Assembly: GCA_002708315.1 (NCBI GenBank)
Contig: PANC01000015.1
Coordinates: 143,671-207,670 of the forward strand
Length of the DNA: 64,000 nucleotides
Direction: 5' to 3'
Source: Lentimicrobiaceae bacterium
Lineage (GTDB): Bacteria > Bacteroidota > Bacteroidia > Bacteroidales > F082
Shown here: positions 59,205-63,209 of the stretch, one piece after another
Numbering within the stretch: position 1 is the first letter of the stretch
Layout of the letters: every line of letters begins with the position of its first letter
Notes under the pieces: generated by a model
Told to the model about the DNA's origin: nothing
The model's database searches: none
Seen by the model: only the letters and a program-made list of their open reading frames with translations
Made by a program: the position numbers and the translations under genes

Positions 59205-59834
59205 TTGAAAAAAAATACTTTGCTAATAATTGGTATCGCAGGCGGAAGTGGCTCAGGGAAAACCACAGTTGTCAACAAAATAATCGAAACCCTACCATCT
59301 GATTCGGTGGCATTAATGCCTCAGGATGCTTACTATTATGATAATGGTCATCTTAGTAAAGAGGAAAAGCTAAAAATTAATTTTGATCATCCAAATTCAA
59401 TCGAGTTTGAACTTTTGTCTGAACACATTAAATTGCTCAAAAAAGGACAAACCATTGAACAACCAATATACAACTATGTGACTTGCGCACGAGCAACTGA
59501 TAAAATAAATATATCTCCAAAAAGAGTTGTTATTGTTGAAGGTATCCTGATTTTAACAAATGAAAAGCTAAGAAGATTATTAGATATAAAGCTATTTGTT
59601 GATACGCCCAAAGATGATAGGCTAATGAGAATAATTCGACGCGATGTACAGGAGCGTGGACGAAATTATAATGATGCTTTTATTCACTACGAGAAATTTG
59701 TTAAGCCCATGCATCAGCAGTTTATTGAGCCTACAAAATTATATGCTGATGTGATAATTCCTCAAGGTGGCAATAATAAAGTCGCCATAGAAATGGTATC
59801 TTCACGAATACAACTAAACCTAAATAATACCTGA
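59205..59834 (+). CDS. udk: uridine kinase
   Basis: 209 residues from TTG 59205; no ATG precedes the conserved part. P-loop 'GGSGSGKTT' is at residues 13-21, 'MPQDAYYYDNGHLSKEEK' and 'NFDHPNSIEFELL' bind the nucleoside, and 'VVIVEGILIL' and 'RLMRIIRRDVQERGR' are the Walker B-like and lid segments. It phosphorylates uridine and cytidine in pyrimidine salvage. An imperfect stem (59863-59883, AGAGTTT/AAACTCT) follows the gene and may end the transcript. Confidence 0.95.
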   Translation: MKKNTLLIIGIAGGSGSGKTTVVNKIIETLPSDSVALMPQDAYYYDNGHLSKEEKLKINFDHPNSIEFELLSEHIKLLKKGQTIEQPIYNYVTCARATDKINISPKRVVIVEGILILTNEKLRRLLDIKLFVDTPKDDRLMRIIRRDVQERGRNYNDAFIHYEKFVKPMHQQFIEPTKLYADVIIPQGGNNKVAIEMVSSRIQLNLNNT

Positions 59835-59981
59835 CCATAATTTATAAGCTATACAATTTCGTAGAGTTTTACTTACAAACTCTTCATATTTGGTATGGGG
59901 TTTTAACTAGCTCGAAAAATCATTTTGCTTAAATCATTGTATCACAAGTAATTATACAGAGTGGCATTTTTATTGGAAGCC

Positions 59982-60021
59982 ATTTATGTATTAACATGTT
60001 TAAACATGTTAATACATAAAT
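59982..60021. repeat. perfect 40-bp palindrome
   Basis: Two 20-base arms meet without a loop between 60001 and 60002 (left arm ATTTATGTATTAACATGTTT). Every position pairs; the symmetry stops at 59981/60022. A further copy of the arm segment TTAATACATAAA is at 60061-60072. It could be an operator, a replication or resolution site, or a hairpin; sequence alone does not decide. Confidence 0.9.
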
Positions 60022-60048
60022 TATGACTAATGCAAGGTTTTACTATTA

Positions 60049-60056
60049 TACTTTTG
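60049..60056 (+). promoter_or_regulatory. -7 box (TACTTTTG) before the zinc-ribbon gene
   Basis: TAnnTTTG match 26 bases before ATG 60083. The half-site TTAATACATAAA begins 4 bases after the box, at the expected transcription start. Confidence 0.4.
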
Positions 60057-60082
60057 CCTCTTAATACATAAAGACAACAACA

Positions 60083-60406
60083 ATGCTAATTTTTATTATT
60101 GCAGCGTATTTAATTTTTGCCTTTATACTTACTTTGTTGGGAATAGATAGGCAATCTGAGTGGATAAAAATTTTCTTCATAAGCGTGCTGTTAACTCCTG
60201 TCTTGGGCCTTGTTTATTTATACACTAAAAGGAATAAAGTTTCCCATGTAAAATACTATCATTGCCATAATTGTGATTATATCTACCCAATAAAAATGAG
60301 AGACTGCCCAATATGTATGGAAGAAGGTGTTAAGGTCAAGCTAAAAAAGTATAAAAGTCCTTATAGCATTTCCTCAAATATTGGTGATTTAAACCTTGTC
60401 CACTAG
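60083..60406 (+). CDS. small membrane protein with zinc-ribbon tail
   Basis: 107 residues. Two N-terminal hydrophobic helices ('LIFIIAAYLIFAFILTLLGI' and 'IFFISVLLTPVLGLVYLYT') precede a soluble part with 'YHCHNCDYIYP' and 'MRDCPICMEEG', two CxxC knuckles that fit a zinc ribbon. No family name recognised; such proteins are common in Bacteroidota. Its function is unknown. The gene stands alone, downstream of the 40-bp palindrome and a -7 box. Confidence 0.75.
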   Translation: MLIFIIAAYLIFAFILTLLGIDRQSEWIKIFFISVLLTPVLGLVYLYTKRNKVSHVKYYHCHNCDYIYPIKMRDCPICMEEGVKVKLKKYKSPYSISSNIGDLNLVH

Positions 60407-60712
60407 AGGGCATAATCTTACCCACTTTATTACTTCTGTTTCTATCCAAATTACTATTTGGTAACATTTTTGTAAATTTGCTAAAAATAAAATGTTCTAT
60501 CATAAATATTCCTTAAAGGAAATGTATACAAACGCGTTCAGGAACATAAAGAAAAGAGATTCATTTATTTTGGTTTAATAATTTTCAGCAACCTGCTGAA
60601 ATTTTATCAATAAGCATCTTCAATAACTACATGCATAAGGAATCTCATTTGATGTTATATAGCATAGCATTATAAATGACTAATTCCATTTGAATTATAA
60701 AAAATCAAAGAA
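60407..60712. promoter_or_regulatory. 306-base tnaA leader region with sORF and inverted repeats
   Basis: Contains a -7 box TAAATTTG (60473-60480), a 28-codon open frame (60492-60578, 'MFYHKYSLKEMYTNAF'), a palindrome TTCCTTaAAGGAA (60509-60521) and a stem TTTCAGCA/TGCTGAAA with a 3-base loop (60583-60601) just after the sORF stop. The long leader suggests regulation of tnaA. The sORF has no Trp codon, so it is not a TnaC-like attenuator peptide. Confidence 0.45.
60473..60480 (+). promoter_or_regulatory. -7 box (TAAATTTG) upstream of tnaA
   Basis: Perfect TAnnTTTG match about 230 bases before the tnaA start codon and 12 bases before the leader sORF. Confidence 0.4.
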
Positions 60713-62089
60713 ATGAAATTACCAAAGGCAGAATCGTTTAAAATAAAAATGGTAGAGGCCATACGCCCTAGTACCATAGATGAGCGTTTAAAATGGATTA
60801 AGGAAGCCAATTTCAATTTATTTAACCTAAAAAGTGAACAAGTCTTCATTGATCTCTTAACAGACTCTGGTACTGGAGCTATGAGCGATAAACAATGGTC
60901 AGAAATGATGTTAGGTGATGAAAGCTATGCTGGAGCTTCTTACTATTATAAATTAAAAAATGCCATTCAAGATATAACAGGATTTGAATATTTTTTACCA
61001 ACGCATCAGGGTAGAGCAGCAGAAAATGTTCTATTCTCAACTATTATCAATGAAGGTGATATAATACCTGGAAATTCACATTTCGATACAACCAAGGCAC
61101 ACATTGAGCATAGAAAATCATATGCTATAGATTGTACTATTGATGAGGCATTTGATACTGAGGTAAACCATCCATTTAAGGGAAATATTGATATTGTAAA
61201 ACTTGAGAAGGTATTAACAGAAAACCAAGTTGAAAAAATTCCATTAATTATTGTCACAATCACTTGTAATTCATCAGGGGGTCAGCCGGTGTCTATGCAA
61301 AACATGAAAAATGTTAGTAAGATTGCTAAAAAATATGGTATTCCGGTTTACTATGACTCTGCAAGGTTTGCAGAAAATGCCTATTTCATAAAAAAACGGG
61401 AAAAAGGGTATTCGGATAAATCAATCCGAGAAATTGTTAAAGAGATGTTCTCCTATGCTGATGGTATGACTATGAGTAGTAAGAAAGATGCCATAGTTAA
61501 TATGGGTGGTTTTCTTGGGTTACGTCATAAGGAAGTATTTGATAGAGCAAGTGTATTTAATATTCTATATGAAGGGTTTAATACCTATGGAGGTATGTCA
61601 GGTCGTGATATGAATGCCCTTGCCCAAGGATTATATGATGGAACGGAGCTTTCATATCTTGAAACTAGAATTAATCAGGTCGCATTTCTAGGCCAAATGT
61701 TAAAAGATAAGGGTATACCAGTGCAATTTCCTTTTGGTGGTCATGCAATTTTTGTGGATGCAAAAAAGTTTTTACCACATCTTCCAAAGGAAGAATTTAT
61801 AGCACAAACCTTAGCTGTTGAACTATATATAGAAGGTGGCGTTAGAGCTGTTGAAATAGGCAGTATTATGGCTGATAGAGATCCTGATTCTGGATTAAAT
61901 CGTTATCCTGACCTGGAATTAATGCGACTTGCAATTCCAAGAAGAACATATACAAATGATCATATGAAATATGTTGCGGCGTCAATTATTAATGTTTTTG
62001 AGAGAAGAAGTAAAATCACAAAAGGATTAATAATTACTAAGGAGGCTCCAATACTAAGACATTTTACAGTAGAATTGGATAGAGCGTAA
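60713..62089 (+). CDS. tnaA: tryptophanase
   Basis: 458 residues, PLP-dependent beta-eliminating lyase. The PLP lysine is Lys257 or Lys258 in 'MSSKKDAIVN'. Tryptophanase is favoured over tyrosine phenol-lyase because of 'YDSARFAENAYF' (tyrosine phenol-lyase: DATRCVENAYF), 'HFDTTKAHIE' and 'RAVEIGS' where the tyrosine phenol-lyase has the Arg of 'RSMERG'. It splits tryptophan into indole, pyruvate and ammonia, giving carbon and an extracellular signal. No tryptophan permease is next to it. A long leader precedes it; a GAF-domain reductase follows 36 bases downstream. Confidence 0.94.
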   Translation: MKLPKAESFKIKMVEAIRPSTIDERLKWIKEANFNLFNLKSEQVFIDLLTDSGTGAMSDKQWSEMMLGDESYAGASYYYKLKNAIQDITGFEYFLPTHQGRAAENVLFSTIINEGDIIPGNSHFDTTKAHIEHRKSYAIDCTIDEAFDTEVNHPFKGNIDIVKLEKVLTENQVEKIPLIIVTITCNSSGGQPVSMQNMKNVSKIAKKYGIPVYYDSARFAENAYFIKKREKGYSDKSIREIVKEMFSYADGMTMSSKKDAIVNMGGFLGLRHKEVFDRASVFNILYEGFNTYGGMSGRDMNALAQGLYDGTELSYLETRINQVAFLGQMLKDKGIPVQFPFGGHAIFVDAKKFLPHLPKEEFIAQTLAVELYIEGGVRAVEIGSIMADRDPDSGLNRYPDLELMRLAIPRRTYTNDHMKYVAASIINVFERRSKITKGLIITKEAPILRHFTVELDRA

Positions 62090-62663: not shown

Positions 62664-63209
62664 ATGCTAACGGTTCTGGTTACATTAATAATGATATTTC
62701 TTTCTTTTCATGTTCTACCATTAGCCATTGGAATAAATATTAATAGCAATCCTCTAAAATCCTTATTGATATTCATTCTAATAATTAGCATACAGGTCTT
62801 TATCTATTGGTTAGGTATCAGGGTTGGTAATGTATTTATGTATTTAATGGATGGATTTAGCGGGGTTATCATTTTTATTGGATTTCTTTTAATAGGAATA
62901 CGGATGTTGATGGAGGTATTTAATATAAGAAAGGGAGAGAGGTCGTATTCACATGAAAAATTATGGCATATTGCTCTTGCTGCATTGGCCCAAGGTATAA
63001 ATACATTCTTAGTTGGCCTTATGTTTTATTATATACCAATTAATGTTAGATACACTCTAATAGTTTTATTAATTGCCGTTTCGATAATATCCTTAATGGG
63101 GCTATTTATGAAATCACAAAAACTAAATTTAGTTTTTGCATCTTTGTTATATGCAATTGGTGGATTAGGAATGTTATTTTCGGGATGTTTTTTTGCATTT
63201 TACTACTAA
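62664..63209 (+). CDS. MntP-like six-helix membrane protein lacking the conserved aspartates
   Basis: 181 residues with six hydrophobic helices in two similar halves, like MntP Mn2+ efflux pumps. The repeated family motif 'SMDAFAV.. / SIDALAVG', whose Asp residues are needed for transport in E. coli MntP, is here 'SFHVLPLAIG' (about residue 14) and 'AQGINTFLVG' (about residue 112): the first Asp is absent and the second is Asn. 'GFLLIGIRMLMEVF' fits the third-helix region. So the fold is probable but Mn2+ export is doubtful. It is followed 13 bases later by an exported nuclease. Confidence 0.65.
   Translation: MLTVLVTLIMIFLSFHVLPLAIGININSNPLKSLLIFILIISIQVFIYWLGIRVGNVFMYLMDGFSGVIIFIGFLLIGIRMLMEVFNIRKGERSYSHEKLWHIALAALAQGINTFLVGLMFYYIPINVRYTLIVLLIAVSIISLMGLFMKSQKLNLVFASLLYAIGGLGMLFSGCFFAFYY

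Follow-up and report, generated by a model that had tools for sequence, protein, structure and literature searches.

A perfect 40-bp palindrome in the draft genome of an uncultured Lentimicrobiaceae bacterium (Bacteroidales) lies within about 80 extra bases which look to interrupt a conserved sigma-54-type promoter, directly ahead of a gene for a putative zinc-ribbon membrane protein. The sequence-only reading of this DNA had described the palindrome but missed its setting, from which more can be learned than from the palindrome alone. We give roughly even odds (probability about 0.5) to a recent, lineage-specific insertion of about 80 bases at the -12 element, in which the inverted repeat would have formed by template switching and the palindrome would be a by-product. 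The comparison with 32 relatives places the palindrome, within a few bases, in the core of a conserved promoter. The locus is a fairly clean natural case of a long perfect palindrome arising in a bacterial genome.

The palindrome

The analyzed stretch of 64,000 bases (the window) contains the palindrome at positions 59982-60021, assigned to neither strand. All 20 of 20 base pairs match without a spacer. The arms read ATTTATGTATTAACATGTTT/AAACATGTTAATACATAAAT, and the inner part has the form AACATGTT-TA-AACATGTT. In 64,000 bases of the window's composition, 4.4e-7 palindromes with arms of at least 20 are expected, and the longest arm across 30 first-order Markov windows was 12. Perfection, absence of a loop and rarity by chance, all claimed from the letters alone, are thus borne out, and the palindrome is a real, non-random feature, so far found in its own genome alone. 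In a 300-kb sample of this genome the longest perfect arm is 9 and the counts per length are near expectation. Shorter perfect palindromes in the window are near expectation too, apart from a mild excess in the form of a single one with an 11-base arm (0.03 expected). Over 140 kb from the sister the counts are likewise near expectation, with mild excesses at arms of 9, 11 (one) and 14 (one).

As single-stranded DNA the 60 bases around the palindrome fold with -15 kcal/mol (z -7.57). The ability to form a hairpin is shared with intrinsic terminators. In contrast to these, however, the palindrome has neither a spacer nor a T-run, its stem is A+T-rich instead of G+C-rich, and it is located between a conserved promoter and a gene. 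The terminator scan gave one site, 60583-60601, and nothing at the palindrome. A terminator of the upstream udk gene was therefore rejected on account of the missing loop, the missing T-run and the missing scan entry, in agreement with the earlier statement that the lack of a T-run speaks against a normal terminator. A structured RNA was rejected as well: the 12 Rfam matches within 59700-60750 (up to E 5) stayed under the gathering scores, and most were to microRNA models. Instability of palindromes is described mainly for lengths over about 100 bp; at 40 bp, the earlier remark on instability in many bacteria seems too strong.

The zinc-ribbon gene and its neighborhood

The gene downstream of the palindrome (60083-60406, + strand) is intact and encodes 107 amino acids. 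The pattern CxxC...CxxC is present in 29 of 29 aligned sequences, including the one from the window, and the N-terminal half is hydrophobic as judged by eye. The Pfam family Zn_ribbon_15 matches the reading frame with 20.5 bits, under its cut-off of 28.9. Compared with the sister genome the gene has a dN of 0.076 and a dS of 0.91 (dN/dS about 0.08), and on these substitution rates it is constrained. The uridine kinase gene (udk; 59205-59834, + strand; dN 0.038 and dS 0.45 against the sister) is the upstream neighbor in all eight genomes of the genus, and the order of the two genes is kept in 8/8. A tryptophanase gene follows next after the zinc-ribbon gene.

For the comparison 173 genomes of the family were searched for the zinc-ribbon gene, with 36 positives at E 1e-15. 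We compared 33 upstream regions, one from the window's own genome and 32 from relatives; the comparison did not include G072, G182, G185 or the four second copies of genus g2. The upstream alignment comprises 13 of the 19 loci L002-L020, without L013 and L016-L020.

A sigma-54-type promoter in the relatives

In the alignment of 13 loci, the members of the genus show the element TGGCA-N6-TTGC a short distance ahead of the ATG. The consensus of sigma-54 (RpoN) promoters is given as TGGCAC-N5-7-TTGCT (PMC12316311), and from this resemblance we infer that the element ahead of the zinc-ribbon gene is a sigma-54 promoter. Such promoters are not unusual in the phylum, since grpE and groES of Bacteroides thetaiotaomicron are described as sigma-54-dependent in the same source (PMC12316311).

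As definition served the GG and GC dinucleotides 10 bases apart (TGGCA...TTGC), a pattern found in the relatives, and elements were scored with weights of our own (maximum 14.5). Distances were measured to the conserved start; an earlier in-frame ATG exists in G196, G062 and G061. An element scoring at least 11 of 14.5 is located 24-32 bases before the ATG in 22 of the 32 relatives. The -24 GG is present in 20 of these 22, and some have GA or GT at -12. G005 carries a full-score element 39 bases before the ATG, four relatives (G067, G016, G065 and G183) have weaker matches (9.5) at 28 bases, and no such element was found there in the remaining five (G194, G008, G023, G070 and G035). In a shuffle control with 19 regions, the scores of G001, G002, G004, G005, G006 and G007 were reached in 0 of 500 shuffles each and that of G003 with a frequency of 0.04; for some regions outside the genus the frequency rose to 0.83.

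The window's own genome encodes RpoN (Sigma54_DBD, 2.1e-50) and one complete enhancer-binding protein (Sigma54_activat, 1.9e-66) with a Fis-type HTH. In having a polymerase subunit and an activator the genome resembles known sigma-54 systems. The locus likewise resembles known sigma-54 promoters, as in most relatives the element stands about equally far from the ATG and in many there is a symmetric site upstream. It differs from them in that the window has G in place of the -12 C and carries the palindrome-bearing stretch in place of the start region.

Two further observations concern sigma-54 in these genomes. Exact TGGCAY-N5-TTGCW sites number three in G000 and two in G006 (genomes of 2.0 and 2.5 Mb) and 8-21 in the other six, larger genomes of the genus; the reversed controls gave 0 and 0 in G000 and G006 and 1-6 in the other six. 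These counts, which are not normalized for genome size or completeness, may reflect a smaller sigma-54 regulon in G000 and G006. Just one full-length sigma-54 activator domain was found in the draft; it is encoded at L122:802-2034 (G000:C23), in a protein for which Pfam finds no sensor domain. The small gene adjoining that one (283-798 on L122) may resemble LptE.

The symmetric upstream site

A candidate activator-binding site, ATACAATTTCGTAG, is located at 59851-59864 (+ strand) and has three mismatches to the symmetric consensus CTACGAATTCGTAG. A site of this kind with at most four mismatches occurs 142-165 bases before the ATG in 19 of the 32 relatives and is exact in G036; since the consensus was derived from the same sequences, these counts lean in its favor. 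The shuffle frequency is at most 0.05 in 14 of the 19, while in G062 and G030, among others, the best match is no better than shuffles. In seven of the eight genomes of the genus TTCGTA lies at a fixed spacing of 116-119 bases to the end of the promoter, and G005 does not show the pattern. Counted from TTCGTA to the TTG of the promoter, window and sister both have 118 bases. Over 126 aligned bases the two sequences are identical at 92; the divergence lies between the block with the site and the promoter remnant, both of which are almost unchanged. The CTACGAATTCGTAG-like site is a candidate for the binding site of a sigma-54 activator. Some relatives have a weaker second copy 20-30 bases further on, and the site is also found where the upstream gene differs. 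A regulon sharing the upstream site and the promoter is not claimed, as reversed controls gave up to eight matches per genome.

Extra bases at the -12 element

The palindrome-bearing stretch is delimited by the alignment, by the distances and by comparison with the empty site. It covers about 80 bases (59976-60056, + strand, edges accurate to a few bases) and is absent from the relatives. To its left the promoter part TGGCATTTTTATTG (59962-59975, + strand) is kept with the -24 GG intact and 14 of 14 bases as in the sister. The base that follows, at -12, is G in the window and C in the sister, giving TTGG for TTGC, and the window itself thus lacks an intact -12 GC. From the promoter to the ATG we count 105 bases in the window and 26 in the sister, i.e. 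79 more in the window. The extra bases start right after TGGCATTTTTATTG and end near 60056, from where the sequence continues with CCT as in the sister. Consequently, the change relative to the sister is confined to the -12 C and the sequence after it. Within 250 bases before the gene, no perfect palindrome in any of the 32 relatives has an arm that exceeds 8; a perfect inverted repeat that is absent from relatives is also what a template switch would leave.

An artefact of assembly or library preparation, namely a hairpin chimera, might be suspected in a genome which is a 2.0-Mb draft of 31 contigs (78% complete). The palindrome, however, lies inside a contig of 229 kb (C14) with synteny on both sides, and on general grounds a fold-back would repeat longer flanks and not 40 bases within 80 new ones. 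We regard such an artefact as highly improbable.

Origin and age

Had the palindrome been evolving neutrally since the split from the sister (dS 0.45 and 0.91 for the flanking genes), changes would be expected at about 9-18 of its 40 sites. The arms have no mismatch, and the palindrome is therefore either recent or maintained, which agrees with the sequence-only reading. Perfect arms would result equally from selection. We infer a recent age, a template switch as the mechanism and no selected function, according to the following model. The sigma-54-type promoter ahead of the zinc-ribbon gene would have gained about 80 bases at its -12 element. Within them, a polymerase that changed templates and copied back either the strand it was making or the partner strand would have left a perfect inverted repeat. 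The downstream sequence TTAATACATAAA was possibly involved in this switch.

TTAATACATAAA is located in the right arm (60009-60020, + strand), with its inverse in the left arm (59983-59994). A second direct copy of these 12 bases occurs 40 bases on (60061-60072, + strand), downstream of the estimated insert, and could have served as template. In three controls of 2000 each, a match of at least 12 was obtained 10 times when the right flank was shuffled, 14 times with both flanks and 17 times among real pieces of the window, so that the match is mildly significant. The repeat spans 12 of the 20 arm bases, and the rest is unmatched. The 12-mer is found in none of the loci of the 32 relatives, so that the downstream copy cannot be shown to be older. 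As a trace of the template the direct repeat is suggestive but not decisive. For the other insert bases, 60022-60056 included, no source was found in the flanks or among the genus matches listed.

In E. coli template switching turns imperfect repeats into perfect ones (PMC7202029). The events described there, in lacZ reporters and at a natural hotspot in thyA, likewise yield perfect inverted repeats by copying of the nascent strand (PMC7202029). They differ from the present case in perfecting a repeat that is already there in imperfect form (18 bp long in the reporters); here the relatives show no such ancestral repeat at the site, and about 80 bases are new.

Search for further copies

The sequence-only reading had suggested a search for the same palindrome elsewhere in this genome and in related ones. 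No second copy was found in the own genome (78% complete) at up to three mismatches, nor among the matches listed for the genus. For a 151-bp stretch searched against the eight genomes of the genus, the self-match is the palindrome on the other strand, and no other match below E 0.001 appears among those listed. The best other match listed (E 0.00117, in G005) covers the promoter remnant and not the palindrome. A weak match in G006:C60 (E 0.0145) was discarded, as it looks like A+T-rich sequence. The inner 22-mer has two places outside the window in the eight genomes at three mismatches, and its reversed control has one.

A DNA-binding protein that acts as a dimer or tetramer could have its operator here, with two AACATGTT sites 10 bases apart; this would account for the perfect symmetry, for the position at a promoter and for internal repeats spaced by one helical turn. 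Such a repeat, however, follows automatically from the sub-palindrome within the arm, the inner 22-mer hardly exceeds its reversed control in the genus, and no further occurrence of the full 40-mer turned up in the own genome. The lack of a second copy in these searches argues against a commonly used operator. Altogether, an operator appears clearly unlikely.

The sharp gain of about 80 bases at a conserved site would also fit the relic of a small mobile palindromic element similar to MITEs or REPs. Elements of this type have several copies per genome, but only the one described was found in the own genome (78% complete) and no further one among the genus matches listed, which also led us to reject a repeat family. 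By eye there are no terminal inverted repeats and no clear target duplication. The inner 28-mer had 0 exact matches in viral contigs, the plasmid search gave no match, and the phage search gave one 23-base match (E 0.7) to a Shewanella phage present as two records. An origin from a phage or plasmid was rejected, as none of these matches is of substance, and we consider a mobile relic very unlikely. A literature search showed, among the papers listed, nothing on this element, on sigma-54 in Lentimicrobiaceae genomes or on long perfect bacterial palindromes.

Possible effect on the zinc-ribbon gene

There is a small chance that the insert changed the control of the neighboring membrane-protein gene. 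The palindrome could act as a new cis-regulatory hairpin in two ways: either transcription starts from the sigma-54 promoter at G59988 and a 5' hairpin alters the stability of the mRNA, or a new -7 box drives expression. The start at G59988, 12 bases past the -12 position, follows from the consensus. It lies in the left arm, and an mRNA from there would carry a flush palindrome of 28 bases at its 5' end. In the prediction, RNA starting at 59988 opens with a 12-bp stem (-19.5 kcal/mol for 123 bases); the sister RNA has -4.6 kcal/mol for 44 bases and is thus not length-matched. A hairpin of this kind is compatible with the retention of the upstream site, the 118-base spacing and the -24 element, with the RpoN and the complete enhancer-binding protein encoded in the genome, with the GA or GT at -12 of some relatives and with an intact gene under constraint. 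On the other hand, the hairpin is absent from the relatives examined, the -12 C is lost, the promoter remnant alone is no better than chance (its score is reached by shuffles with a frequency of 0.076), the start position is set by the consensus only and the -7 box has no clear -33 partner. A cis-regulatory hairpin is thus unlikely in our opinion.

The -7 box of Bacteroidota reads TAnnTTTG. The motif TACTTTTG (60049-60056, + strand) matches it and follows the palindrome after 27 bases, so the box noted earlier is present as a match. Its link to the palindrome is weak: a clear -33 partner is missing, and the conserved promoter looks sigma-54-type. If the sigma-54 promoter were silent, TACTTTTG could be a replacement -7 box, but it lacks a clear partner, and a box this short is expected often in A+T-rich DNA.

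A more specific proposal is that the insertion rebuilt the sigma-54 promoter, with the activator site and the -24 element kept and all of the sequence from -12 onward exchanged. The transcript would then start within the palindrome and carry a flush 5'-terminal hairpin, which would stabilize the mRNA or uncouple the gene from its ancestral control. We take this to be quite unlikely. If the promoter still works, the locus would illustrate how a sigma-54 promoter can put up with, or make use of, having its start region replaced. If it is dead, the lineage may have dropped sigma-54 control of a conserved, uncharacterized zinc-ribbon membrane protein.

Other palindromes

Two shorter perfect palindromes were observed. 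One of 22 bp, CAAAAACTAAATTTAGTTTTTG, is located at 63117-63138 inside the reading frame 62664-63209, and the sister genome has the same (L083:12908). The other, of 28 bp with an A run on one side, lies in G006 (L089:8585-8612) between two minus-strand reading frames; it overlaps the TTG start of one mechanically called reading frame and is possibly a terminator.
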